NCBI GenBank assembly: GCA_948435375.1
Contig: CAOJGQ010000008.1
Span: 1 to 41,916 of the forward strand
From: an uncultured Candidatus Saccharibacteria bacterium
GTDB lineage: Bacteria > Patescibacteriota > Saccharimonadia > Saccharimonadales > Saccharimonadaceae
Direction of reading: 5' to 3'
DNA length: 41,916 bases
Below the pieces are notes generated by a model. The model was not told the origin of the DNA. It did not search any database and was given only the letters and a program-made list of their open reading frames with translations. Shown here in pieces: positions 1 through 37,112 of this stretch (positions are counted from its first letter, which is position 1; each line of letters begins with the position of its first letter). The position numbers and the translations under genes are program-made.

Positions 1-53
1 TTAAGTCGTAACAAGGCATCGGTACGAGAACGTGTCGATGGATTACCTCCTTT
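1..53 (+). rRNA. rrs: 16S ribosomal RNA, 3' end (partial)
   Basis: The first bases contain the universal AAGTCGTAACAAGG segment and the 3' terminal GGATTACCTCC with the anti-Shine-Dalgarno core CCTCC at 46-50. The gene enters from the left edge; the exact 3' end is estimated from the usual three or so bases after CCTCC. No tRNA and no 23S follow; instead a hairpin terminator lies about 190 nt downstream. Confidence 0.97.
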
Positions 54-237
54 CTTGAGAAGGATTTGATGCGGATATGGAGCGAAGGAAACTGAAGCTT
101 CTATCTAGCTAGGTCGGTCGTGAATTGTGCTGCTATCGCAAGATGGCGCAAGCTTGAAGTACAATTTTGCCTGTTCGCAGGCCGCGACAAAACAAGCTTT
201 GACTTTCGATGAATTGCACAACTAAGTTGTTAAAAAT

Positions 238-267
238 AATATCACCAGTGAAAGCTGGTGATATTTA
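238..267 (+). terminator. Terminator of the 16S transcript
   Basis: An 11-bp perfect stem (AATATCACCAG at 238-248 with CTGGTGATATT at 255-265) around a 6-nt loop, ending in T-rich sequence. It closes the 16S transcript before any 23S gene. The preceding 54-237 is a precursor spacer with several short inverted repeats, probably for RNase III-type processing, but I cannot define the arms. Confidence 0.8.
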
Positions 268-307
268 TGTGGGCTGGGAATGGGGATGATAGGATGGACG
301 AGTTTGG

Positions 308-350
308 GCTGGTGGACTTGGGCTGGTGGACTTGGGCTGGTGAACTTGCG
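308..350. repeat. Short tandem repeat, three 14-nt units
   Basis: The unit GGGCTGGTGGACTT occurs three times in tandem (the last with one change) between the rrs terminator and the promoter at 374. No coding function is evident. Confidence 0.7.
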
Positions 351-373
351 AAATTTGAGAGTTATGGTAATGC

Positions 374-402
374 TTGCAATTTGCTCGGGGGGGGGGTATA
401 CT
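374..402 (+). promoter_or_regulatory. Promoter with G10 tract in its spacer
   Basis: TTGCAA at 374-379 (four of six matches to the -35 consensus), a 17-nt spacer, and TATACT at 397-402. The spacer contains ten consecutive G at 387-396 directly next to the -10 box. It would drive the gene at 539 through a leader of about 130 nt. Slippage in the G run would change the spacer length, so the promoter is a candidate for phase variation. Confidence 0.55.
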
Positions 403-538
403 TAAAGGGATTGGTGGGAGTACGTTAATTTTTTGGTATTATCTTGCCAGAAGTACTTCACTAAAATGAATGGCTAAAATGCAAGGTTGAATTTTGTAAC
501 TCGTGGATGTATGCAGAGATTGGAAGGAGGCGACAGAT

Positions 539-1786
539 ATGTCACAAGAGAGCATACGGGGACGATTGATGGGTGAGTTGAAAAAGGCTATGAGACACCT
601 GGATCGACCGAATATTACTCAGGAAGAAGCGGTAATGTATTCTGATCTGACTAATACGAATGATTTAGCGTTTTATTACGGTTCGTTCGAAAAAGCGCGC
701 CAAGAAGCTTGGTCGGAGATTCAGCGGGAGAAAGCTGCGGAAGCTGAGCCATCAGATGAGGCGGCGGACAAGCAAAAGCGCATTCAGCAGTCAGCGGCGA
801 AGATGAGACGGGAAGCTTTGATTGAATGGCTGATCAACGAGGAACGAAAAGTGGGAAGGAAGCTTTCGCCGATTAGTGATGTCAAGAAAAAGTACTCGGA
901 AAAGTATAAGGCGATCTTGGATGAGTTTGGTATGTGGGCGCATGTGGAGACCGCGATGTTGGAGGAAAAGCGACGTCAGAAAGAAGCACAATCTTCCAGA
1001 GACGAAGGAACTCCGGATACGACATTGTTGGGTGTAACAAGACGGAATGTTGGTGAAGCCCAAGACGAGGCTAAAGATGAAGCTAAAGACGAAGTTGTAG
1101 TCGAAGAGGTCAAAAGCGAAGATGTCGTGGCTGAAAAGGTTGAGGTTGAAGAGAGTGTGGGCGGAAGGCCTACTACGGATACAGAGCAGAAACCAAAGAG
1201 GCGTCGTCGATCCACGCCACAAGTGGAGGAGTTGGTGGCTTATCTGATACGCTTGGAGGCCGAATTGGGCACAATACCTAATCAGGCTCAGCTGCTCGAA
1301 TACGCGAAAACGCATGATGACGGTTACGCTTATGCCACTTTGGTGCGATATTTGGGACCAAAGAGAGAGTGGCCGCTATTGGTGCGCGAGGCACGTTTGA
1401 AGCCTGAGAAGGAGCAGGAGGTGGCTGAGCATGATCAGGAAGTAGTCGACTTAGACCAGGATGAGCCTGATCACGATGCGTTTGACCAGGAAGCGGCTTG
1501 GGAAACGAGTGAAATCTTGGGCGCGGCCGAGGATGAAGTGGCGAGCTCGGAGCTCAGGCAAGCGACCTCTGAGGCGGAAACAAGTCTGGAGGAAGTTGAA
1601 GTCTCTGGGGAACCAAGTCTGGAGGACGTTGAAACTTCTGTTGAATCGAGCTTGAAGGAAGTTGAAGCCCAGGACGGCGTGAAGCGAATTGAAATCACTC
1701 TGGGTCGGAAAAACATGGCTTTCAGGGTGGAGCTGGATGGGCAGAAGTATGAAATTGTGCTTAATTTGGCGGAAGATAATGCGTGA
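539..1786 (+). CDS. Unknown protein with HNH_repeat-like helical repeats
   Basis: 415 aa, function unknown. The start at 539 is chosen over an upstream in-frame ATG at 503 because AAGGAGG (524-530) is correctly spaced from it. Two helical units are visible, near residues 85-140 (ending FGMWAHVETAM) and about 230-285 (ending YLGPKREWPLLV). They resemble the homing-endonuclease-associated repeat (HNH_repeat), a DNA-binding helical module, but divergently. Between and after them lie long acidic, Glu/Asp-rich low-complexity stretches. The C-terminus is a short hydrophobic beta-hairpin-like segment (VKRIEITLGRK..FRVELDG). The protein at 2025 has the same plan, including the LGPKxxW motif and a similar C-terminal strand pair. 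Its promoter carries a G10 run. A DNA-associated role is an inference only. Confidence 0.75.
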   Translation: MSQESIRGRLMGELKKAMRHLDRPNITQEEAVMYSDLTNTNDLAFYYGSFEKARQEAWSEIQREKAAEAEPSDEAADKQKRIQQSAAKMRREALIEWLINEERKVGRKLSPISDVKKKYSEKYKAILDEFGMWAHVETAMLEEKRRQKEAQSSRDEGTPDTTLLGVTRRNVGEAQDEAKDEAKDEVVVEEVKSEDVVAEKVEVEESVGGRPTTDTEQKPKRRRRSTPQVEELVAYLIRLEAELGTIPNQAQLLEYAKTHDDGYAYATLVRYLGPKREWPLLVREARLKPEKEQEVAEHDQEVVDLDQDEPDHDAFDQEAAWETSEILGAAEDEVASSELRQATSEAETSLEEVEVSGEPSLEDVETSVESSLKEVEAQDGVKRIEITLGRKNMAFRVELDGQKYEIVLNLAEDNA

Positions 1787-1790
1787 AAGG

Positions 1791-1817
1791 AAAATCCCTG
1801 AGGAATCGGGGATTTTT
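1791..1817 (+). terminator. Terminator after the 539 gene
   Basis: AAAATCCC pairs with GGGGATTTTT around a short loop, just after the stop codon. The same AATCCC/GGGGATTTTT style recurs after the genes ending at 3113, 5988, 14458 and 37112. Confidence 0.8.
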
Positions 1818-1870
1818 GCTGGGAGAAAATCGTCAAAAGTTCGAGAAGGCTGATTTTGGCGCTCTGGAGC

Positions 1871-1899
1871 TTGACTTTTTTCGCTATGTGTGCTATAAT
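1871..1899 (+). promoter_or_regulatory. Strong promoter with extended -10, leader to 2024
   Basis: TTGACT at 1871-1876, a 17-nt spacer, TATAAT at 1894-1899 preceded by GTGTGC (extended -10). It is one of a family of near-identical promoters in this window (4131, 12992, 34390 and inside ileS at 40639). The transcript leader of about 120 nt contains the hairpin GGCTTA...TAAGCC at 1943-1963. Confidence 0.85.
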
Positions 1900-2024
1900 G
1901 GAGGTATGGGGGTAGAACTTTAACACCCTCTGTAATATTTTGATGGCTTAAAATAAACTTAAGCCAGACAAGCAATTTTGAACAGGAAGTTTGAACGGTC
2001 TGCGAAAAGGAAGGGGATGGTAGA

Positions 2025-3113
2025 ATGCAGACAATGGAAAGCAGCGCCATAATGCTGTATCCTGTGGAGAATGATTTTTTGGAAACGACAGAGACGAATC
2101 GCAAGGCGGGGAGGCGAAAAAAGACTGAAGCGCAGAAGCTGCTCGAGGAGAAGCGGATGCTGGGTTGGCTGTTGAAGATGTATGATGAACGGGGGAGGAT
2201 GCCACTTTGGAACCAGATTCGTCGCGAGTATCCGGAGGAAGCACAGGAAATTCAGCGAATTTTCGGGTTTTGGGAATCGGCGAAGACGAAGTTGTCGCTG
2301 ATGATCAAAGCGCGGGAGGAAAAGGAGAAAGAGCTGAGGCTGGCTGAGCAACAACGGTTGGCGCGTCGTACCTACGGTTCGACGTATTCCTTGGAGGATT
2401 ACCTCCAAGGAATACTGCTTGTTCAGGAGCACTTGAAGATTAAGCGGATGCCGTCGCTGCGGGAAATCGATAGCGTGGCGAAAGAATTAGGATTGCCATC
2501 TGGAATTTCTTTTTCGCGGAAGCTTTTTCATAAGGAATATTGGGCGGGTTTTGTTAATCGTTACAATGAAGCTTCGCGACTGGAACGCGAGGTGGTCTTG
2601 GAAGAGATTGAAGCGGAATTAAATCAGCTGAAGAAGGCTGAGCTACAAGAGACAAAGGCCCAGAAACGAGCTAGAGGTGAAAAAGTGCGACCCGACAAGT
2701 TGGAATATAACCGAGAGGATTGTTTGCGGACACTTTTGCGTATGTGCCAATATTATGGCCGTATGCCATCGAATCGTCAGGTCGAGGAACATAATAGGAT
2801 ATTTAAATCAATTTCAAAGAAAGCATTGCTTCGACATCTTGGACCGAAAGACACCTGGGAACCACAGCTGACGGAATATAAACATCAGCGGTCTATTGAT
2901 GCTTATCTGAGGCGTTGTAATGAGTTGACTAAAGGCGAGCCGATTGATCTGAAGGCGATTGCTGGAATGGTTGAACAGTTTGCTTCGGAAGGGGATAAGC
3001 TGGAGTTTCGGACTTTGCTCGAGAAGCTGGAGAAAGCGACCTTGAAGGCGCCGGCAACGTTTTGCCTAAAACTCGGCGAAAGGAAGTTTGAGATTACAGC
3101 GAAACCGCGCTAG
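2025..3113 (+). CDS. Unknown protein with several HNH_repeat-like units
   Basis: 362 aa, no enzyme domain recognised. At least three divergent helical repeats can be seen: about residues 40-95 (GRMPLWNQIRREYP..FGFWESAK), 120-180 (KRMPSLREIDSVAKELG) and 230-280 (YGRMPSNRQVEEHN..LLRHLGPKDTW). Each has the pattern 'leucine-rich helix, GR/KRMPS, helix, aromatic pair' of HNH_repeat-type DNA-binding modules. The C-terminus (CLKLGERKFEITAKP) is a short beta-hairpin like that of the 539 protein. The start at 2025 has GGAAGGGG upstream. It follows a strong extended -10 promoter and a 120-nt hairpin-containing leader, and ends at its own terminator, so it is a single-gene unit. The 539 and 2025 genes are probably paralogues; their biological role is unknown. 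Confidence 0.78.
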   Translation: MQTMESSAIMLYPVENDFLETTETNRKAGRRKKTEAQKLLEEKRMLGWLLKMYDERGRMPLWNQIRREYPEEAQEIQRIFGFWESAKTKLSLMIKAREEKEKELRLAEQQRLARRTYGSTYSLEDYLQGILLVQEHLKIKRMPSLREIDSVAKELGLPSGISFSRKLFHKEYWAGFVNRYNEASRLEREVVLEEIEAELNQLKKAELQETKAQKRARGEKVRPDKLEYNREDCLRTLLRMCQYYGRMPSNRQVEEHNRIFKSISKKALLRHLGPKDTWEPQLTEYKHQRSIDAYLRRCNELTKGEPIDLKAIAGMVEQFASEGDKLEFRTLLEKLEKATLKAPATFCLKLGERKFEITAKPR

Positions 3114-3135
3114 CAGAGTGAGTGGTGATAGAGGG

Positions 3136-3170
3136 AATCCCTTGAGGCGAGAGCTTCGGGGGATTTTTTT
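3136..3170 (+). terminator. Terminator after the 2025 gene
   Basis: AATCCC at 3136 pairs with GGGGGATT before a T7 run. The -10 box of the next gene (TATAAT 3178-3183) follows immediately. Confidence 0.8.
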
Positions 3171-3192
3171 ATTATGTTATAATGGAAAGAAG

Positions 3193-4053
3193 ATGAAAAA
3201 AGTGGAGAAAAAGGCGAAAAAAGAGCAGAATGCGGCGGTTTTTCGGCAGACTTTTGATCGGCGGGGACGGCTTTTGCAGTGGTTCCACGAAGTAAATATG
3301 CAATATCCGTGGCTAAAGGTGGCGTTAGTGGTTTTGATGATTCTTTTGCCGCTGAATGAGGCGGCGCAGGCGCAAAAAGTGGAGGAAGCGAGGGCGCCGA
3401 CGCGGGCGGTAGCGCTGAATTTGAAGGCGCCGGCGAGAAAGCGGAGTTTGGAAGGGAAGAAACTGGTGGCGCTGACGTTTGATGATGGGCCATTGGCTGC
3501 GACAACGCCGCAACTACTCGATATTCTGAAGAAAAAACAAGTGCCAGCGACTTTTTTCGTGGTGGGGACAATGGCGGAACGGGCGCCGGAAGTTTTGAAA
3601 CGAGAGCAGAAAGAAGGACACGAAGTCGGTAGCCATACGACGGCGCACCGGAGCCTGGCGACGATGTCGGCGGGGGAGATTCAGGCGGAGAAGCAGCAGA
3701 TGAATAGCATCGTGGAGCGGATAACAGGGAAGGGGGTGAGTTTGGTGCGGCCGCCGTATGGGGCTTTGAGCGATACAGTGAGGGGGACGATGGGGCAGGC
3801 GATGATTTTGTGGTCGGTGGATCCGGAGGATTGGCGCGACCGGAAGGCAGAGACGGTGCGGACACGAGTGCGAGAAATGGCGCACGACGGAGCGGTGATT
3901 CTGCTGCATGACATTCATCCGACGACAGTGGAGGCGGTGCCAGGGATTATTGATGACCTGAGGGCGGATGGGTATGAATTTGTGACGGTCTCGGAGCTGG
4001 CGGAGGCGAAAAAGGTAAAGCTGGAGTCAGGGAAGGTTTATCGAAGTTTTTAG
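3193..4053 (+). CDS. Membrane-anchored polysaccharide deacetylase (NodB domain)
   Basis: 286 aa. A carbohydrate esterase family 4 enzyme, expected to remove N-acetyl groups from peptidoglycan or another surface glycan outside the cell. All five NodB motifs are visible: TFDDGP (metal Asp pair), HTTAHRSL (metal His pair), RPPYG, DPEDW, and ILLHDIH. A hydrophobic segment near residues 38-55 (LKVALVVLMILLP) after a basic N-terminus acts as signal anchor. The start at 3193 is preferred over the longer in-frame extension because TATAAT lies at 3178-3183, so the transcript would begin only a few bases before this ATG. The upstream extension also runs through the terminator of the preceding gene. The substrate is inferred; cell-wall modification fits the parasitic or epibiotic lifestyle of Saccharibacteria. 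Confidence 0.93.
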   Translation: MKKVEKKAKKEQNAAVFRQTFDRRGRLLQWFHEVNMQYPWLKVALVVLMILLPLNEAAQAQKVEEARAPTRAVALNLKAPARKRSLEGKKLVALTFDDGPLAATTPQLLDILKKKQVPATFFVVGTMAERAPEVLKREQKEGHEVGSHTTAHRSLATMSAGEIQAEKQQMNSIVERITGKGVSLVRPPYGALSDTVRGTMGQAMILWSVDPEDWRDRKAETVRTRVREMAHDGAVILLHDIHPTTVEAVPGIIDDLRADGYEFVTVSELAEAKKVKLESGKVYRSF

Positions 4054-4130
4054 GACAAGACGATCTTAAGGTTAACCTCTGTTATACTATAAAGATTTCT
4101 GGATTTTTTGTAAAATAGGCATAAAAGGTA

Positions 4131-4159
4131 TTGACATTTTTGGTCATGTGTGCTATAAT
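4131..4159 (+). promoter_or_regulatory. Strong extended -10 promoter
   Basis: TTGACA at 4131-4136, a 17-nt spacer, TATAAT at 4154-4159 preceded by GTGTGC. This drives the leader and gene that follow. Bases 4148-4181 match 40656-40689 inside ileS at 28 of 34 positions. Confidence 0.9.
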
Positions 4160-4165
4160 GGAAGT

Positions 4166-4632
4166 ATAAGCTTGGTGAAGGACCTAGAGCTTGAAGCGAA
4201 AGGATAAGAAATCTTCATCAAGGAGCAAGTTAGCTCCCATTAAGGCTTAGGGAAGAAAAATCGGTTATATTCATATAACCCCTAGTTCTGGCGAACTAGG
4301 TTCCAGGTCTTAAAGGTTTACGCACATTAAAAGCGAGAACGAAAGTGTGGATTTGGCACTTGGACTTGAGTGGCCTTTTGGTTTATCCTTAGGGATGAAC
4401 GAAAAGGCTGCTTGAAGAAGAGTGGCTGAAGGTAATTAGAGGCTGGAACGAGTTATAGAAAAAATAAGTCGCTTGTTCTATACCCGCTTGAGGGTTTGGC
4501 TAAGACTTCATATGGTGCACCGACGCGGAAATTAGGCGATTCGATGCGGTAACTAGTAGTTGGCTCAGCTGAAGGCTGGGCGAGGATCTGAAAAGGAAAG
4601 GAACCCGGTCTGGACCGGGGAAGGTGACAAGT
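4166..4632 (+). promoter_or_regulatory. Long structured 5' leader (about 465 nt)
   Basis: No plausible coding frame covers it. It is packed with local hairpins: GGAGC/GCTCC near 4221-4238, GGTTAT/ATAACC at 4263-4281, an adjacent CCTAGTTC/GAACTAGG at 4282-4302, a long imperfect stem CCTTTTGGTTTATCC with GGATGAACGAAAAGG around 4372-4407, and CCCGGT/ACCGGG at 4603-4618 directly against the Shine-Dalgarno GGGAAGG. It could be a cis-regulatory RNA or an independent small RNA; it matches no riboswitch class I recognise. Confidence 0.6.
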
Positions 4633-5988
4633 ATGAGGAAAATTAACGTGAGCTGGGGCGGCGGTATGAGTGATTTGTTTTTGGATTTGACAGGTAAGAA
4701 GCCGAGAGTACTCGATTTTGAGTACGACGGATCTGAACTGCACGAGAGATGCGGCGGCAAGACGTACTATACGTCTTGTAGCGGGCTTTCGGGAGCAGGG
4801 TATCTGGAGAATCTGGGGACGCTGATGCCACTGGGGCGGTATCGGGTTGATACGGTTACTAATGAGCACCAGAGCTTCGTCCCAATTGGCAAAGCCTGCT
4901 ATAACTACGATATGCACGATGATGTGCTGGTCGCGGTGCCGTATGCGAGCCATGAGGCAGATAAGGCGGAGATCTTGCGAACACATCCAGTGGTCGTGAG
5001 ACTTGGAAGGAAGGTTGTGTATTGTGATTTTTTTGGCAATTTCACAGAGATTTTGAGGATCATTTTTTCCGGTGAAGAGTTGCCAGAGGAATGCGAGATG
5101 GACGGAGCCCGTTTTTTCGGACGGGGATACCGCGATTTGAGCAGGCGGTTTTCTGAGCTTGATCCTTGGGGAGATGCTCGGGCAGTCGATATCAACATAG
5201 AGTTTTACAATTTGTGCTCTATGAATGATGTTCTAAGTCCATGGGAGTTTTTCCGGGATGAGCTGCAACGGTTTACGGTTGAGTGGAGTAGGGAACGGTT
5301 GTTCCATCTCCTTGCCGTGGACAGGTTGCAGGATGGCACGTTTGTTCGGACCAGGAAACTTGTCGGTGGAAACTATCACGGGGAAATCCTGCCGGGTAAT
5401 CCGCTGGAGACTGGCGAGTTGACTGCGGGTTGGCAGAGACTGGCCGATGATGTACTGGTGCGCTTCTATGATGGAAGCAACGAAGTGCATCTGGTGGCGT
5501 ATGCCTCGGCCAAGGCGGCGCACGAAAAGCTGGCGCAGCGATTCGCTTATCGCATGGGCGAGGGAGAGGAGTTTGTCTCTTTTGCTTCCAAGTGCGGCGG
5601 CGAGTACGAGGAATACGAGATCGTTGCGTCGAAGGTGATCTATGCGCTGGATCCGGCTGCACAATTGGCGGAGCTGCGTAGAAAGCTGGCGAACAAGATT
5701 CGTCAGGGCGTAGACGATCGCGTACGGCAGTGGATTGAGGATATGAACGACCAGAAGATTCTGGAGACGATTCCGGATGATCTGGTGGTGACGTTCGATG
5801 ATTCGCTGGAGGCAGGGAACTGTCGTCCGGGCTCGCAGGAGTTCGTGGCGCGATATTTCCCGGGTCAGACGGAAGCCACGGCGAAGGAGTTGAAGGCGTA
5901 TGCTGACAACTATAACGTTATGCGGATTTTCCGTCATTTGGCCGTGATCGGGCGATTCAATTGCGATCTCAGAACCTTCAGTGCATAG
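4633..5988 (+). CDS. Conserved-looking protein of unknown function, 451 aa
   Basis: No known domain recognised. GTG at 4624 is also in frame, but ATG 4633 is preferred because GGGAAGG ends eight bases before it. No signal peptide or clear membrane segment. The middle (about residues 200-340) mixes strands and helices; residues about 350-375 form a charged helix (LAELRRKLANKIRQGVDDRV). The C-terminal 70 residues hold a motif, TFDDSLEAGNCRPGSQEF, followed by YNVMRIFRHLAV. I have a weak recollection of the AGNC-G motif in hypothetical proteins of plasmids and phages, but cannot attach a function. It is a single-gene unit with a strong promoter, a long structured leader and its own terminator. 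Its codon use is more GC-rich at third positions than the adjacent core genes. Confidence 0.75.
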   Translation: MRKINVSWGGGMSDLFLDLTGKKPRVLDFEYDGSELHERCGGKTYYTSCSGLSGAGYLENLGTLMPLGRYRVDTVTNEHQSFVPIGKACYNYDMHDDVLVAVPYASHEADKAEILRTHPVVVRLGRKVVYCDFFGNFTEILRIIFSGEELPEECEMDGARFFGRGYRDLSRRFSELDPWGDARAVDINIEFYNLCSMNDVLSPWEFFRDELQRFTVEWSRERLFHLLAVDRLQDGTFVRTRKLVGGNYHGEILPGNPLETGELTAGWQRLADDVLVRFYDGSNEVHLVAYASAKAAHEKLAQRFAYRMGEGEEFVSFASKCGGEYEEYEIVASKVIYALDPAAQLAELRRKLANKIRQGVDDRVRQWIEDMNDQKILETIPDDLVVTFDDSLEAGNCRPGSQEFVARYFPGQTEATAKELKAYADNYNVMRIFRHLAVIGRFNCDLRTFSA

Positions 5989-6014
5989 TCTGGTTTGTAG
6001 TTCTCGCTTGATTG

Positions 6015-6058
6015 GTCCTCGGTGGAAGCTCGTAAAGAGTGGAAACCGGGGATTTTTC
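6015..6058 (+). terminator. Terminator after the 4633 gene
   Basis: TCCTCGGT pairs with ACCGGGGA across a loop of about 22 nt, followed by TTTTTCTTTTT. Confidence 0.7.
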
Positions 6059-6151
6059 TTTTTGGAGATTGAAGTTGGTTTTTGAGACTTGGTGGTTTCT
6101 TTTTGTTTGGTGGTTGATTTTTGGTGAAGAATGGGTTAGAATGGGAATATT

Positions 6152-6228
6152 GGGGATATAGCTCAGCTGGTTAGAGCGCTAAACTGATAATTTAGAGGTC
6201 TGTGGTTCAAGTCCACATATCCCCACCA
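6152..6228 (+). tRNA. tRNA-Ile (GAU)
   Basis: Acceptor GGGGATA pairs with TATCCCC; D-arm GCTCAGCTGGTTAGAGC; anticodon loop CTGATAA gives GAT; T-arm with GGTTCAAGTCC; discriminator A and an encoded CCA. It is preceded by a possible promoter (TTGATT about 6112, TAGAAT about 6135). Normally this tRNA sits in the 16S-23S spacer. Confidence 0.97.
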
Positions 6229-6379
6229 GTCGACTTGTTATCGTAGCGTATTTTAAGTTCATTCGGCGCTCGCTCGTCGTTTAGACGCGCTTCGCTTGAA
6301 TTCGCTTGAACTACATCTACGCTAACTTTGTCTTTGATTTCGGAAATAACTCGATTTTAGCGCCGAAATCAAGTGTTTT
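6229..6379. other. Intergenic spacer between tRNA-Ile and tRNA-Ala
   Basis: No gene. Contains a stem GATTTCGG / CCGAAATC around 6338-6371 that could act in processing or termination between the tRNAs. Confidence 0.6.
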
Positions 6380-6456
6380 GGGGCAATAGCTCAGCTGATT
6401 AGAGCGCTGCCTTTGCAAGGCAGAGGTCCAGGGTTTGAATCCCTGTTGCTCCACCA
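6380..6456 (+). tRNA. tRNA-Ala (UGC)
   Basis: Acceptor GGGGCAA pairs with TTGCTCC; anticodon stem CTGCC/GGCAG with loop TTTGCAA giving TGC; encoded CCA. The Ile(GAU)-Ala(UGC) order is the classical rRNA spacer pair, here separated from any rRNA gene. Confidence 0.97.
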
Positions 6457-6485
6457 TCACAAGATTTCTAGATGATAGAGGTTTT

Positions 6486-7076
6486 ATGATGGCAGGAACA
6501 CAACAAACATCAACAAAAATGAAGAAAACTACGGGGTCTAGCGGTGCGGCGAAGATGCGTAAGTTGCCAGATGAGCGGACAGTGAAGAAGGTTAGGAATA
6601 ATGAGGCGCGAGGGCAGACGAATGTTACGTTGATTGCTTTGGTGGTGCTTTTGCCAGTGCTACTGTTGGGGGCGGCGATAATGTGGGAGTCCGGAATGCT
6701 GAGCGGAAGCGGAGAGGTCTCGAATCAAAGGGAAGATCGGACAGGGATAGAGGCGGTGTATTATGATTGTGAGGCCTGGGAAAATACCGATGAAAACTAT
6801 ATCAAGATGACTGGGGATGATCTGGTTCTAGTCAGGATTATGATGGATGACATGGCGGAGAAGAAAGGTGCGATGCATTGTATGATTGACGCGCTGGGTG
6901 GAACTGTTGAATTTGATCAAGCGCTGGAGACGACAATTGCGTTTACGACAGTGGGGTTTGATTTTGGTGATTATCGGGGTGTGATGAAGTTGCAGGAGAT
7001 GGACGGGAGAGAGGATGAGGCGTTTTATCTGGCGATTTTTGAGACGGGGGCAGCCGGCGGGGCCGAGGGAAGATGA
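6486..7076 (+). CDS. Small single-pass membrane protein, unknown
   Basis: 196 aa. A basic, Ser/Thr/Lys-rich N-terminus of about 45 residues precedes one transmembrane helix (TLIALVVLLPVLLLGAAIMW, about residues 47-66), then an extracytoplasmic domain of about 130 residues with two cysteines (YYDCEAW and MHCMID) and a motif AIFETG near the end. No family recognised. The in-frame extension to 6435 lies in the tRNA-Ala gene, so the start is placed at the double ATG 6486/6489; no strong Shine-Dalgarno is seen, and transcription may continue from the tRNA or start just upstream. It ends with TGA, showing TGA is a stop codon here. Confidence 0.72.
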   Translation: MMAGTQQTSTKMKKTTGSSGAAKMRKLPDERTVKKVRNNEARGQTNVTLIALVVLLPVLLLGAAIMWESGMLSGSGEVSNQREDRTGIEAVYYDCEAWENTDENYIKMTGDDLVLVRIMMDDMAEKKGAMHCMIDALGGTVEFDQALETTIAFTTVGFDFGDYRGVMKLQEMDGREDEAFYLAIFETGAAGGAEGR

Positions 7077-7134
7077 TTTTATGATTTATCAATATTAGGG
7101 TTGCTATTTTGCTGAAGGAAATATACTTGTTTGG

Positions 7135-7215
7135 TGACTAACTATTAGACTTTTTGGGATGGAGCGCCTCTCGGGCGCAACACCTTTATATCCCAAAAAG
7201 TCTAATAGTTAGTCA
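7135..7215. repeat. Perfect 25-bp inverted repeat before cassette A
   Basis: Arms 7135-7159 and 7191-7215 are perfect complements over 25 bp, with a GC-rich loop that contains GCGCC/GGGCGC. It lies between the 6486 gene and the first variable cassette. It could terminate transcription from either side. A very similar stem at 17806-17861 shares the inner TATCCCAAAAAG. Confidence 0.85.
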
Positions 7216-7275
7216 ATAGATTAAGGTTCATCCTTTGACAAAACCAGAATCATGAACCCAGAAATCGGGATTTGG

Positions 7276-7462
7276 ACCGTAAAGCCGCGCCAACGATCGT
7301 TGTCGTTCGACGGGTAGACGTTGGCGCTAGTGAAATAGAGATAGTACGCAGAGAGCTCTGACGGGTAGGCAGGGATAGCCCAGTAGTAGCCATTGCTGCC
7401 CGCGTCCCTCAAAGAGCCGGTAGTCATATACACGTTCCCGCCACGAGTTAGATATATAGAAT
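7276..7462 (-). repeat. Variable-domain cassette A
   Basis: Read on the minus strand it encodes SIYLTRGG, then TTGSLRDAGSNGYYWA, a variable core, and RWRGFTV. The 5' head (CTATATATCTAACTCGTGG), the GYYW core and the 3' GGCTTTACGGTC are shared with the other cassettes. There is no promoter, ribosome binding site or N-terminal protein part, so I treat it as a silent cassette rather than a gene. Its 3' tail (CCGATTTCTGGG...GATTCTGGTTTT) is shared with cassettes C and J. Belongs with FISUMP / C-type-lectin-like variable domains by motif (GYYW, RWxGFTV). Confidence 0.8.
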
Positions 7463-7572
7463 ATTCTGGAGAAGTATTTTGGTTAGAGATTGTGTGGTAG
7501 TTTTTTAGTTTGGGGCTGTGGGGTGGTTTTGGTTTGGAGCTTTTTGTTTACTCTCAATTTTAAAACATTACC

Positions 7573-7780
7573 GATTCTCCTATACATACTAACTCGTGGC
7601 GGGAATATAGATTTGACACGTGGCTCTTTGTGGCGCACGGGTGGATTTGGTAAATTTTGGGGAGCCACTGCGTATTCGTTAATATCCGATACATATTTTT
7701 TCACTTTTGATAGTGCTACCGTTAATCCATCGTATTACGGTGAACGATGGCTCGGCTTTACGGTTCGGCGAATTATGTGA
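7573..7780 (+). repeat. Variable-domain cassette B
   Basis: Head-to-head with cassette A. Encodes LTRGGNIDLTRGSLWRTG, a divergent core (FWGATAY, TFDSATVNPS) and RWLGFTVRR before a TGA stop at 7778. The head has one extra base relative to the others. Upstream 110 bp are T- and G-rich with no clear promoter. Confidence 0.75.
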
Positions 7781-8290
7781 AACGGGTTGATGGAAGGGAA
7801 TTTTTGGGGTGGTATATCGGTTTAAAATGGCCTTCAGAGCTGTTTGGAGACGATTTGAGGCTGGTGTAGTGCTAAAGATGAGTATATGGCGTTTTAGGAA
7901 AAAGGACGCTGAAACGGCCGGAAAAAGCGAAATAAAGGGTATTTTTAAAGCCTAAATGGGTGGCTTTTGGGTTTTTTGCTGGATGATTTTGGTGTTTGGG
8001 TGGGCAATGGGGGGGGGGGTGGTTTTTAGGAGAAAATGGGGACTTTGGGGGCTGAAAGGGAAATATATCATGAGACGGGTAGAGATAAGCGGAAAGCAGG
8101 AAAATGAAGGGATTTTTGTTCGGGTGAATAAAGTGGAAAATATGACAGAATGTGATGAAAAATGTGTTTTAAAATGTGTTGCAAAGATGGATGAAAAATA
8201 GCGAAAAAATGATTTTTCGGAAAAACAAGAGGGGGATTTCTGGTGATTTTAACGGGTGTGATGAAAAGATTATGACATAATTTTAGCAAA
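7781..8290. other. Gene-poor region with a G11 run
   Basis: About 510 bp without a convincing gene. It contains a run of 11 G at 8009-8019 within G-rich sequence, inside an 81-codon open frame (7956-8201) that lacks a ribosome binding site. Otherwise AT-rich and unremarkable. Confidence 0.5.
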
Positions 8291-8296
8291 AACGTA

Positions 8297-8357
8297 TTGA
8301 CAAAACTGAAGCGGTATGCTATACTGGATATAACATCCTAAAGAAACGCGGGATGTT
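8297..8357 (+). promoter_or_regulatory. Promoter and leader hairpin of the KGG gene
   Basis: TTGACA 8297-8302, a 17-nt spacer, TATACT 8320-8325 with an extended TG. The leader starts with the hairpin AACATCC/GGGATGTT (8333-8357) and runs about 135 nt to the ATG. Confidence 0.85.
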
Positions 8358-8469
8358 TGGACGGATTTTGACGGGAAAAAGTCAAATAGGACAAACTGCG
8401 AGGTCTCGGGTTTCAAGCGAAAAGGGTGGTTAAGTAGAAGGTTAATTGGTGGGCAGAAAAGGAGTTTCT

Positions 8470-8670
8470 ATGGCAGGAACGAAGGCAGGCGGTTTGAAAG
8501 CTGCAGCGACTAATAAAGCGAAATATGGCAAGGAGTTTTACTCTCAGATTGGCCGCAAGGGTGGTCAAAATGGCCACACTGGTGGTTTTGCTGCTAACCC
8601 GGCTCTAGCACGGGTGGCTGGCGCCAAAGGTGGTCGCATTTCGCGCCGTGGTCCAGCGAAAAAGGCGTAA
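8470..8670 (+). CDS. KGG-motif mini-protein
   Basis: 66 aa, very basic and glycine-rich. Two KGG motifs (RKGGQNGHTGGF and AKGGRISRRG) match the short stress-related KGG/GsiB-type repeat. The type is, from memory, common in Saccharibacteria, where its role is unknown. The start at 8470 follows AAAAGGAG with five bases spacing; the upstream in-frame TTG (8446) has no ribosome binding site. It has a strong promoter, a structured leader and a strong terminator, so it is probably highly expressed. Nucleic-acid binding or a desiccation/stress function is inferred from composition only. Confidence 0.88.
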   Translation: MAGTKAGGLKAAATNKAKYGKEFYSQIGRKGGQNGHTGGFAANPALARVAGAKGGRISRRGPAKKA

Positions 8671-8700
8671 GCTAGAACACTTGACAACGGAAAAATGCAA

Positions 8701-8726
8701 AAAAGACGCTCGAGGGGGCGTCTTTT
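8701..8726 (+). terminator. Terminator of the KGG gene
   Basis: AAAAGACGC / GCGTCTTTT stem, an 8-9 bp perfect hairpin. Confidence 0.9.
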
Positions 8727-8770
8727 GCGGTTATGCTCGCGTGATGGGCGATTTTTTATATAATGGGGCT

Positions 8771-9328
8771 ATGATGGAGGTAGAGCGGGAGGGCTCGCAG
8801 GAGAAATTGTTGGCGGATTCGGCGCAATGTGAAGAGGGTTTGTATGGACGGCTTTTGGCGGAGTTGCGGCGGGATTTGCCGGATTTGCGGTTTCGGGTGG
8901 GTCGAAAATTTGCGTTTCGGCCGCCACGGACGATTTTTTATGTGAATACGGAAAATGGTCAGGGTGAGCAAAATTGGGATTTTGGTGAACAAAAAATGTG
9001 GCGAATGCGGATTTTGCACGAGGTGGGGCATGCGGTCCTCGGACACCGGGATTTTGCGACGGATGTGGAGCGGTTGAAGATGGAACGGGCGGCCTGGGAG
9101 AAAGCACGAGAACTATACGGGTATTATCGGGGACGGTTTGAGGCGCAGAAGCAATTTGGTGTGGGAGAGCAGGATTGGGGTGAGTGGGAGGAAGAGGTGG
9201 TGGAGATGGAGCTGGATAGCTATCGGGATTGGCTGCATCAGAGGTCGAAGTGTCCGGAGTGTGGTTTGACACGCTATCAGGCGACGGATGGGAGGTATCA
9301 TTGTCCGAGATGTGAACAATTTTGTTAG
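8771..9328 (+). CDS. Zinc metallopeptidase-like protein with C-terminal zinc ribbon
   Basis: 185 aa. The motif HEVGHAVLGH (about residues 83-92) is the HExxH zinc-peptidase signature with a third His five residues on, close to the ImmA/IrrE-type domain. The C-terminus carries CPECG (C161, C164) and CPRC (C178, C181), a four-cysteine zinc ribbon. No signal or membrane segment, so it is cytoplasmic. TATAAT at 8759-8764 lies six bases before the ATG at 8771, so the mRNA is probably leaderless; a longer open frame from 8630 runs through the KGG-gene terminator and is rejected. In other bacteria such proteins cleave repressors; a target here is not apparent. Confidence 0.85.
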   Translation: MMEVEREGSQEKLLADSAQCEEGLYGRLLAELRRDLPDLRFRVGRKFAFRPPRTIFYVNTENGQGEQNWDFGEQKMWRMRILHEVGHAVLGHRDFATDVERLKMERAAWEKARELYGYYRGRFEAQKQFGVGEQDWGEWEEEVVEMELDSYRDWLHQRSKCPECGLTRYQATDGRYHCPRCEQFC

Positions 9329-9399
9329 ACATGAGGATTTTGTTGCGGTTTTTTGAAAGATTTTGAGTGGGAAAAGGGGAGAAAATTGAACAAAAAATG

Positions 9400-9597
9400 T
9401 AGACAAACAGAGGAAATATTGATATAATAGAGGTAGATTTCGGGTTCGTTCAGGAGGCTGAAATCTAGCGAGCTTGGAGATGGTTTTGTCGGGTCTGAGA
9501 TTTTGGACCACTGCGAGGTGACGAAACTGCTTTGGCTTGGTTGTTGTGGGGTTAGATTTTTCCTGAGCGAACCTGAAGAAAGGATAATATAATAGAT
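9400..9597 (+). promoter_or_regulatory. rpsA promoter and 165-nt leader
   Basis: TAGACA 9400-9405, a 17-nt spacer, TATAAT 9423-9428. The leader contains a long-range inverted repeat (GGTTCGTTCAGGA at 9443-9455 with TCCTGAGCGAACC at 9561-9573, 12 Watson-Crick pairs plus one T-G wobble) that would bring its two ends together just before the start codon. Autoregulation of S1 through its leader is known in other bacteria; here it is an inference. A second TATAAT (9588-9593) lies four bases before the ATG. Confidence 0.6.
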
Positions 9598-10659
9598 ATG
9601 GCAAAAGCCAAATTAACGATGGATGAATTGCTGGCGGGTGCTGATGAAGGCATGCAGCGAGCGATGACCGGGGAGACGGTAACAGGGAAAGTGCTTTCAA
9701 TGCGGAAGCATGAGATTTTGATTGACCTTGGTGCGAGAGGCGTAGGTGTAGTGCCACGCAAAGAGGTCTCTTTTGCGCGCAACCTTGAGGTGGGGGACGA
9801 GGTGACCGCTTCGGTGATTGAATCGGAGATGGATGATGGTAGCGCACTTTTGTCGCTGCGCAAGGCGGCGAAGGAGAAGGGCTGGGATGAAATCCAGGCG
9901 CGGATTGATAATACTGAAGTCATTGAGATTACGCCGTTTGATGCGAACCGCGGGGGGCTTTTGGCGGAATATGAGGGGATTCGGGGATTCTTGCCGGTGT
10001 CGCAGCTTTCGGCGGAACATTATCCACGCGTTGGGAGTGCTGATAAGGATGAGATTCTACAACGTTTGAACTCCTTGGTTGGTCAGCCGATGAAAGTGCG
10101 GATTTTGGATGCGAATCGTCGCGATAATAAGCTAATCTTCTCGGAGAAGGAAGCAATCAAAGATGGTCTCGCGGAGCGGTTTGCTGAACTGCATGTGGGT
10201 GATACTGTGAAAGGTGTAGTGACCGGTGTGGTGGACTTTGGTGCATTCGTGAATGTGGATGGAGTCGAAGGATTAATTCACATTTCAGAGATTTCTTGGG
10301 AACGTGTGAATAACCCAGCAGACTATGTGAAAGTGGGTGACGCCGTAGAGGCGAAGATTATCACGATTGATAAAGAGCGTTTGTCGTTGTCGATGAAACA
10401 ATTGACCGAGGATCCGTGGCTTTCAGAGGTGGAAAACCTGAAGCGGGGTGATGAAATTGAAGGCACAATCACGCGGATTACGCCGTTTGGAGCCTTTGTG
10501 CAGATTTCACCAGCGGTGGAAGCCTTGGTGCATGTTTCGGAGCTTGGCTCGGGGAACGATGCTGATCCGGAAAAAGTGTTCACGCTGAATGAGCGCAAGA
10601 AATTCCGCATCTTGGACATTGATCGAGAAGGTCGGAAGATTTCCTTGACGGTCGCCTAG
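9598..10659 (+). CDS. rpsA: Ribosomal protein S1 (four S1 domains)
   Basis: 353 aa. S1 binds mRNA on the 30S subunit to assist initiation. Four OB-fold S1 domains are visible: about residues 20-85 (TGKVLSMRKHEILIDLGARGVGVV), 100-170 (ending RRDNKLIFSEKEA), 187-257 (GDTVKGVVTGVVDFGAFVNV) and 272-342 (GDEIEGTITRITPFGAFVQI). Domains 3 and 4 are the most canonical. Four domains rather than the six of Escherichia coli fits small-genome and Gram-positive-like versions. Single gene with its own promoter, structured leader and a terminator shared with the convergent gene. Confidence 0.96.
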   Translation: MAKAKLTMDELLAGADEGMQRAMTGETVTGKVLSMRKHEILIDLGARGVGVVPRKEVSFARNLEVGDEVTASVIESEMDDGSALLSLRKAAKEKGWDEIQARIDNTEVIEITPFDANRGGLLAEYEGIRGFLPVSQLSAEHYPRVGSADKDEILQRLNSLVGQPMKVRILDANRRDNKLIFSEKEAIKDGLAERFAELHVGDTVKGVVTGVVDFGAFVNVDGVEGLIHISEISWERVNNPADYVKVGDAVEAKIITIDKERLSLSMKQLTEDPWLSEVENLKRGDEIEGTITRITPFGAFVQISPAVEALVHVSELGSGNDADPEKVFTLNERKKFRILDIDREGRKISLTVA

Positions 10660-34733: not shown

Positions 34734-37112
34734 ATGAGTAAGAAGAAGCAGTATAAACCATATCCGTATCAGGAGGAATGTCTACAGAAAATCGTGGAGA
34801 CGATGGAGGCGGGTGAATCGCGGGCGCTGGTCGTTATGGCGAGTGGGCTCGGGAAGACGCTGACGGCGGCTTTTGCGGTGGAGCGATTTTTCGCTGGGCA
34901 GAAATTTGGACGGGTGTTGATTTTGTGCCATTCGGAAGAAATTTTAGATCAGACGAAGAAAAAGTTTAAGATTTATTTCGGCGAGGAAAAGAGTTATGGT
35001 ATGTTTACGGGCAGTCATAAAGCGTCGGACGAGGTGAGATTCTTGTTTGCGACTTTTCAGACCATGAAAAAGCATCGGAAGGAGTTTGCGAAAGATGAGT
35101 TTGATTACGTGATCGTTGACGAGGCGCATCATTCGTATGCGACGACTTATTTTCCGACGATTCGGTATTTCAAGCCGAAGTTCCTGCTTGGGCTGACGGC
35201 GACGCCAGATCGGCTGGACGGGCAGGACATCACGGAGATTTATGGCGAGTCAGTGTATGAACTGGACTTCGTGGAGGCGAATGATCGAGAGTTGATGACA
35301 AAATGTGAATATCGGATGCTCCTAGATGATTTGGCGAGGGAAGAACTGGAAGTGTACACGGAAAGTGAGGAAAAGCTGTCGATAAAGCAGCTCAATCGGA
35401 CGCTGTTCGCGCCGAAACGCGACGAGGAAATCGTGCGGATTATGCGGCAAGAAATGGCGAATGTAGATGATCCAAAAATGATAGTGTTTTGTCGGACAAT
35501 TCCGCATGCGCAAAAGATCGCGAAACTGTTGGGCGATGATACAGCATTGGTGCATAACGGTCAGGGTAAAACTGCGAATGATTTGGCGCTGGATGCGTTT
35601 CGGGATGGAAAAATCCGGATAATTGTGTCAGTGCAGATGCTGAACGAGGGGATTGATGTGCCAGATGCGAATATGGTAGTTTTTCTGAGAAACACAGTGT
35701 CGCCGACGATTTTTTATCAGCAGCTGGGGCGGGGAACGCGCTTGGCGAAAGATAAGGAAAAGACGGTGGTGCTGGATTTCGTGGCGAATTGTGAAAGGAT
35801 CAAGATGATTCTGCAGCTGCAGAAGGAAATCGAAGATTTTCGGACGCATAAGCCACAGGACGAACCGATGACTACGAAACTCGGCGATGAGAAGCCAAAT
35901 TTCACGCTCGATATCGCGACGCCCGAATTTGAAACCAAAATGGTGGATATTGTGGAGTTGATTGAGAGGGCGAGTAAGGGCAGAGAGTGGACGAAGGAAG
36001 AGATAATCGTTGCGTTGCAGAGGCTGGCGAAGGAGTTGGGAAGGACGCCGACTATAGCTGACCTTACGGGTCGGGATGATATGCCGAGTGATACTACTGT
36101 TGTGAGACGTTTTGGAAGTTTTTCTAATGCCTTAATTCGGGCTGGATTAATTGTGAACCGGTGGGCGAAACTATCGAAAGAGGAAGCCATTCGTATCATA
36201 ATGGCTAAGTCGGTAGATGGAAATATGCCGCCAAGGAGCGTTTTTGTTGAAGATCCAACGACGCCGTTGCCTTTTACAATTATGCAAGCGCTGGGTGGGG
36301 AAACTTGGGCTGATTGTGCTGAAATACTCGGTTTAAGGGCATACGATTTTAGCAGATTGAATGAAAGCCAGCGAGAAGAAAAGAACTTACATTGCCTAAA
36401 AGCTTATTATAACGAAAGTTTGGCGGCAGGGCGTTGGTTGACTGCTGTAGAAGTAGATGCTAATCCGAGATTAAAGAGCTTCAGTTTTTATCAGCGTTAT
36501 TTCGGAAAAATCCGTAATGTACGAGCTAAAGCGTTGGAGCTGTTTTGTACTTCAGAGGAAGAGAAGGCGATTTTAACGCAAAATGGAAAATTTGCTGGTC
36601 TCTGTCGGCCTAGTGAATCTCTTGCGAAGACTGATGATCAATACATAATTGATGGGCTAATTCGCTTAGTTAAGGAGCTGAGGCGTAAACCTACGGTGGC
36701 GGATGTAGACGCGTGTGATTATTTGCCTGCTTATGCATGCCTGAGAGAGAGGATGGGTGGTTTGGCTAAGATTGATGAAAAGTGCCGATTTGATGAGATT
36801 TTGGAGTCGATAGGTGTTAAAGTTGAGCTTAGGGGTCGTAAAACATATAAGAAGGCTGTGTTTATTCGGCTTCCTGATGGCTCCTTTGAATTGAAAGAAG
36901 ACCGAAAAGTGACTATGCAGAATTTCGTGCGAAGAGCTGGACGTAGGATATGCAGCTATGATTTGGGTCAAAAGAATGGGCTGCCTGGATATACGGTATT
37001 TCGCGTTCGTGGTTTGTCTATGGATGACGTGAATCGGATGATTGGTACAGATGAAATCCTGGCGGAACTCGCAGCGGAACAAGAACAAAAGCAAGAACAA
37101 AAAAGCAACTAA
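34734..37112 (+). CDS. DEAH-box helicase with C-terminal HNH_repeat array
   Basis: 792 aa superfamily 2 helicase of the type III restriction/UvrB-like group. Walker A MASGLGKT at residues 35-42; DEAH at 129-132; TATPDR; motif VI QQLGRGTR near 332-340. From about residue 420 the protein switches to repeats: TKEEIIVALQRLAKELGR..FGSFSNALIRAGL is a classic HNH_repeat (homing-endonuclease-associated, DNA-binding), followed by at least three diverged units (about 485-530, 555-605, 640-690). The C-terminus ends in Glu/Gln/Lys repeats. No nuclease domain is visible. Candidate roles: antiphage defence or DNA repair; neither is shown. Strong promoter and long leader as in the other orphan genes. Confidence 0.88.
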   Translation: MSKKKQYKPYPYQEECLQKIVETMEAGESRALVVMASGLGKTLTAAFAVERFFAGQKFGRVLILCHSEEILDQTKKKFKIYFGEEKSYGMFTGSHKASDEVRFLFATFQTMKKHRKEFAKDEFDYVIVDEAHHSYATTYFPTIRYFKPKFLLGLTATPDRLDGQDITEIYGESVYELDFVEANDRELMTKCEYRMLLDDLAREELEVYTESEEKLSIKQLNRTLFAPKRDEEIVRIMRQEMANVDDPKMIVFCRTIPHAQKIAKLLGDDTALVHNGQGKTANDLALDAFRDGKIRIIVSVQMLNEGIDVPDANMVVFLRNTVSPTIFYQQLGRGTRLAKDKEKTVVLDFVANCERIKMILQLQKEIEDFRTHKPQDEPMTTKLGDEKPNFTLDIATPEFETKMVDIVELIERASKGREWTKEEIIVALQRLAKELGRTPTIADLTGRDDMPSDTTVVRRFGSFSNALIRAGLIVNRWAKLSKEEAIRIIMAKSVDGNMPPRSVFVEDPTTPLPFTIMQALGGETWADCAEILGLRAYDFSRLNESQREEKNLHCLKAYYNESLAAGRWLTAVEVDANPRLKSFSFYQRYFGKIRNVRAKALELFCTSEEEKAILTQNGKFAGLCRPSESLAKTDDQYIIDGLIRLVKELRRKPTVADVDACDYLPAYACLRERMGGLAKIDEKCRFDEILESIGVKVELRGRKTYKKAVFIRLPDGSFELKEDRKVTMQNFVRRAGRRICSYDLGQKNGLPGYTVFRVRGLSMDDVNRMIGTDEILAELAAEQEQKQEQKSN

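Follow-up and report, generated by a model that had tools for sequence, protein, structure and literature searches.

Phase variation by repeat slippage has been studied mostly in well-known pathogens. In Campylobacter and Helicobacter, the poly-G/C tracts are mostly intragenic frameshift switches. In Neisseria meningitidis, the expression of porA, whose product is a porin, was reportedly found by van der Ende in 1995 to be set by the spacing between the -10 and -35 elements. In fetA (frpB) of Neisseria gonorrhoeae, according to the sections of PMC5320596 that deal with this gene, a poly-C tract between the -10 and -35 elements ranges from C10 to C14 between strains and alters expression. (A table in that article gives gonococcal porA a mixed tract, T8-11 C G6-8.) In a Gracilibacterium, another CPR bacterium, part of PMC6851277 describes a hypervariable repeat gene and names slippage as a possible cause. 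A paper on oral Saccharibacteria, in the portion that concerns us, ascribes homopolymer differences between assemblies to nanopore sequencing (PMC9600527).

Here we describe a stretch of 41,916 nucleotides (the window) from an uncultured member of the Saccharibacteria, in which a run of ten G lies in the spacer of a putative promoter behind a 16S rRNA gene (Table 1). We think it probable that this is a slipped-strand transcriptional switch on an HNH-repeat-like gene, and that it is one of a set of such switches in related Saccharibacteria. In the proposed mechanism, the tract would be the variable part of the spacer in the promoter that drives the gene at 539. Slippage during replication would add or remove G residues and so alter the distance between the -35 and -10 elements. 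The promoter would be strong near 17 nt, as in the present allele, and weaker at other lengths, and the outcome would be a reversible transcriptional switch (phase variation). In related Saccharibacteria, many promoters, often those of secreted proteins, would be equipped with this device.

The likeness to fetA is a homopolymeric G/C tract in the promoter spacer (PMC5320596, in the sections cited above). The difference is that the fetA target is an iron-siderophore receptor whose switching has been shown, whereas here the target would be a cytoplasmic-looking HNH-repeat-like protein known from its sequence. The initial annotation had likened the locus to porA. That is fair for the mechanism, as the -10/-35 spacing is the control principle there and would be so here, but the porA tract tabulated in PMC5320596 is mixed and the run here is pure G, and fetA is the closer textbook match. 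The contingency loci of Campylobacter and Helicobacter, as far as our sources describe them, are similar in that many G/C tracts per genome act as a set; the difference is that a large share of the tracts here lie in promoter spacers. The Gracilibacterium case is alike in being repeat-based variation and differs in that, in the part of the article concerned, the repeats are 9-bp coding repeats in one gene, with no promoter tract (PMC6851277). The mechanism is thus known from gonococcal fetA, and the Saccharibacteria are a group for which, as for Patescibacteria, TM7 or CPR, we found no report of promoter-tract phase variation or slippage in the open-access literature.

Table 1. Features of the tract promoter and its surroundings, in window coordinates
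Feature	Position	Strand	Basis or remark
16S rRNA gene, 3' end	1-56	+	Landmark common to orthologous loci
14-bp tandem repeat, 3.2 copies	304-348	+	Immediately upstream of the G10 promoter
-35 element TTGCAA	374-379	+	Sequence; aligned to TTGACT, TTGAAA and TTGATT of orthologous promoters
Fixed, non-repetitive part of spacer (tttgctc)	380-386	+	Orthologs have similar stretches of 4-6 nt ahead of the tract
G10 tract, proposed slippage site	387-396	+	G9-G14 at four homologous loci
-10 element TATACT	397-402	+	Sequence, promoter scan and ortholog alignment
5' leader	403-538	+	Similar to leaders of homologous loci at the GGTGGGAGTA stretch (413-422)
Ribosome-binding site AAGGAGG	524-530	+	Ahead of the ATG at 539
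HNH-repeat-like gene (415 aa), proposed switch target	539-1786	+	First long reading frame behind 16S

The initial annotation had placed the ten-G run between TTGCAA and TATACT with 17-nt spacing, and the sequence confirms this: at the present G10 length, the spacer is 17 nt. The site at 374-402 matches the promoter consensus at 9 of 12 positions in a promoter scan, with no TG ahead of the -10 element. It combines two features by which slipped-strand transcriptional phase variation is recognized, namely a homopolymeric tract between the -35 and -10 elements and, directly downstream of the promoter, an intact gene with its ribosome-binding site. With a 17-nt spacer, the window allele is predicted to be in the ON state. 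The first 56 positions are presumably the end of the 16S gene, and of the 174 genomes in the genus, 123 contain a match to the segment 1-66. With Rfam models at gathering scores, the window yielded tRNAs and nothing else. (Downstream of the 16S end, the window has no reported 23S gene; tRNA-Ile and tRNA-Ala, which are frequent in the 16S-23S spacer, lie at 6152-6456, about 6 kb on.)

The protein encoded at 539 scores 22.4 bits with PF18780 (HNH_repeat), under the Pfam gathering cut-off of 26 bits, and we therefore call it HNH-repeat-like. As the target named in the initial annotation, the gene gains support. HNH_repeat matches occur in three proteins of the window (539-1786, 2025-3113, and 34734-37112), and the match in the helicase at 34734, with 71.4 bits, is the only one above the cut-off. 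The target gene appears to be poorly conserved: a single-sequence protein search (E ≤ 1e-5) found no homolog in 59 other genomes (60 including its own). Alignment-free modelling of the 415-residue protein gave a poor structure (mean pLDDT 46.5). From its sequence, the protein looks cytoplasmic rather than secreted, and its resemblance to HNH repeats leads us to guess at a DNA-associated role.

Could the run and the promoter match have come together by chance, with the gene at 539 transcribed from elsewhere? Judged by the window alone, the run does not clearly exceed chance, nor does the promoter match. Runs of at least eight G gave 7 overlapping matches, against a mean of 3.81 in dinucleotide shuffles, and 14 of 100 shuffles reached 7; a run of this kind is not improbable because the dinucleotide content itself readily yields such runs. 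Scanning 1-9600 for promoters gave 14 sites, where shuffles gave 10.2 ± 3.4; five of the 14 score 10-12 of 12, better than the site at 374-402. More telling than the shuffle counts is the distribution of run lengths, which is bimodal: G runs in the window dwindle to length 6 (7 runs), there are none of 7-9, and then come one G10 and one G11, while A and T runs end at 7. (The G11 lies at 8009-8019 on the + strand, within an open frame of 81 aa that begins with a hydrophobic segment and has no Pfam match.) The source genome, 908,884 bases in 30 contigs, has five runs of at least nine G or C. The evidence that the arrangement of tract and promoter is not due to chance comes from the sequences of related genomes. 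In other species, a tract of G9-G14 occupies the corresponding site with respect to 16S, the promoter elements (-35 and -10) and the gene, and where the tract is missing, in two orthologs, an ordinary promoter stands there; we therefore regard a coincidence as very improbable.

A profile search (E below 1e-30) gave seven closest homologs, including the window: G001, G164, G016, G068, G035, and G081 are the others. Six of the seven are linked to a 16S end; the G035 locus has neither tract nor 16S end. Among these six close 16S-linked homologs, four carry a G tract within the promoter, with spacers of 15-17 nt: besides the window (G10, 17 nt), these are G016 (G10, 16 nt), G001 (G9, 15 nt), and G164 (G11, 17 nt). 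In the other two, G068 and G081, the corresponding site holds an ordinary spacer of 17 nt. Together, these six loci support the promoter position that had been proposed from the window. G171 contributes a 16S-linked homolog that is more distant, with G14 and an 18-nt spacer (counted from the printed sequence); it stands outside the count of four in six because it was spotted through its tract. G001, G164, and G081 have almost identical leaders, and a GGTGGGA stretch is common to the window and G171. Similar genes occur with and without the tract (G016 versus G068; G001 and G164 versus G081), which suggests, from gene similarity rather than from a tree, that the tract at this promoter was repeatedly gained or lost.

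Beyond these close relatives the tract is uncommon. Only 5 of the 30 homolog loci returned by the profile search, the window included, have a tract promoter. (Sixteen of the 30 lack the motif used to find the gene, and L414-L438 were checked for G runs only.) Among the latter, a G9 in L430 is on the opposite strand and does not belong to a promoter of the HNH-repeat-like gene, and other more distant 16S-linked homologs, such as G033 (L420), showed no tract and no alignable promoter. In a survey of 93 post-16S records, runs of at least nine G were found only in the window, G016, G001, and G164. (The records are 90 post-16S loci, where L192 is the window and L194 is the same place as L041, plus L041, L082, and L175.) We also considered whether the position behind 16S is itself the cause of the tract, and rejected this because most post-16S loci carry no tract.

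Across the genus, 97 of 174 genomes have a run of at least nine G and 77 have none. These runs form at least 149 distinct tracts, of which 143 are usable and 6 were dropped for short or N flanks. Among the tracts listed, a -10-like hexamer lies within 10 nt 3' of the run for 68 of 143 on the G strand versus 7 on the C strand, and -35-like and -10-like hexamers occur together for 55 versus 6. We compared these tracts with runs of 4-6 G at the same loci. (A slightly different flank rule gives 145 tracts here instead of 143.) Among the tracts listed, both elements flank 57 of 145 long runs versus 159 of 1660 short ones (odds ratio 6.1, p 4.6e-19), and in a strict form, with a -10 of at least 5/6 directly behind the run and a -35 of at least 5/6, the counts are 28 of 145 versus 4 of 1660 (p 4.6e-28); related tracts share ancestry, so these p values overstate independence. 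The loci were picked for their G9 runs, which biases run counts and not the comparison of contexts. The 149 tracts listed divide into 43 that are clearly in promoters, 44 inside an open frame of at least 100 aa, and 62 that belong to neither class.

The arrangement is also found outside the genus. In the order, G9 followed by TANNNT gave 44 matches in 21 of 246 genomes and 15 genera, versus 3 matches for the reversed pattern. The proposal of length-dependent spacing, made at first for this one promoter, gains support from the recurrence of the arrangement on many promoters of the genus and in scattered genera of the order. An exact scan of a wide genome collection for TTGACA, a gap, G9, and TANNAT also found matches in many other bacteria, including Lachnospiraceae, Bacilli, and Treponema (among the 80 of 118 stretches listed), so the device is not peculiar to Saccharibacteria. 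(Judging by their titles, the records of these matches, L211-L290, are mostly host-associated.)

The recurrence of tracts in promoters bears on a second alternative, in which the tract arose by slippage a single time, is now almost constant in length, and plays no part in switching. This would fit with the two orthologs that do without a tract. Also, the lengths that we compared are those of different species or paralogs, and the homologous post-16S loci, which range from G9 to G14, come from one genome per species. A search for mutS1 found it in 0 of 40 Saccharibacterial genomes and in 11 of 14 control genomes; its apparent absence makes slippage plausible, and neutral slippage alone could then produce long runs. 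A static spacer does not account well for the enrichment of long runs in promoter spacers, above all in the strict form, or for the differences between tracts whose flanks are very similar. Among the tracts listed, length differs in 22 of 33 pairs with flanks at least 60% similar (the pair L016/L046 has N flanks and is to be discounted). Pairs that are at least 90% identical on both sides include L117/L166 (12 and 11), L128/L130 (10 and 14), L040/L111 (17 and 16), and L121/L125 (10 and 9), and each of the last three lies within one genome. Between the species or paralogs compared, the tracts thus appear to change faster than their flanks, although lengths in draft assemblies may be miscounted. 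We consider a static spacer unlikely, and we infer that the tracts slip in living populations and that expression depends on their length.

Third, the tract could be an artefact of assembly or sequencing, such as poly-G base calls. Tracts are indeed over-represented near contig ends: among the 300 tract rows listed, 26 start within 100 bases of the beginning of a contig, versus about 1-2 expected by a rough estimate. These look like assembly breaks, and mixed tract lengths or sequencing trouble could be the cause. However, the run in the window has unique sequence on both sides, its position between -35 and -10 elements recurs in independent assemblies, and the C strand is nearly without the arrangement (6 of the 143 tracts listed). 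An artefact is scarcely credible, and what could be off by one is the exact length of 10. We set aside a role in a G-quadruplex: the usual form has four G runs, and there is one run of ten G here.

In the 43 tract promoters listed, the spacer ranges from 12 to 35 nt; it is 16-18 nt in 14, 15 nt in 5, and 19 nt, the commonest value, in 8. As only 14 of 43 are near the optimum, either many alleles are weak or off, or some -35 elements are misassigned, or spacing matters less than we propose. The longer spacers would fit weak alleles, and they may instead reflect misassigned -35 elements. Reading frames lie downstream of 41 of these 43 promoters; two have no frame in reach. A hydrophobic stretch occurs within the first 90 residues of 24 of the 41 downstream frames versus 19 of 73 control frames, which differ from the downstream frames in length and completeness. 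Predicted secreted proteins are the largest group behind tract promoters, and the 539 gene is not among them. Pfam matches (E ≤ 0.001) in the 41 downstream proteins include Fib_succ_major (3), HNH_repeat (PF18780; 3, best E 1.5e-13), Listeria-Bacteroides repeats (2), and acetyltransferases (2), with single matches to a papain-like peptidase, a type IV secretion pilin, a cytosine methylase, and a Clp protease.

Three other loci have tracts in different settings. In L007 (983-1531, - strand; C12:26452 in the genome), a C9 close to where an MT-A70-family methyltransferase gene begins is currently in frame and is a candidate translational switch. In L008 (925-1515, - strand; C18:2259), a G11 separates a GtrA-like gene from a NUDIX-domain frame; at the G11 length, the sole upstream ATG seen is not in register with the latter. 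In L011 (about 1501; C23:1644), a G10 precedes the gene for a LiaF-like membrane protein, with a weak promoter fit.

Saccharibacteria live on other bacteria. We tentatively suggest, as a reading about which we are somewhat doubtful, that the set of poly-G switches diversifies secreted proteins and the post-16S HNH-repeat-like gene within a population. On this reading, the uptake of a G tract by the post-16S promoter in several lineages would mean that switching of this gene was repeatedly selected, and any benefit would perhaps lie in encounters with host bacteria or with mobile DNA. The tracts provide testable loci in organisms with little genetics, and they carry a warning that G-tract differences between such assemblies may be biology and not only sequencing error. 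If such switching operates in Saccharibacteria, then their reduced genomes may offset a small gene set by the diversity of the population, and the switched genes would point to what their partners see.
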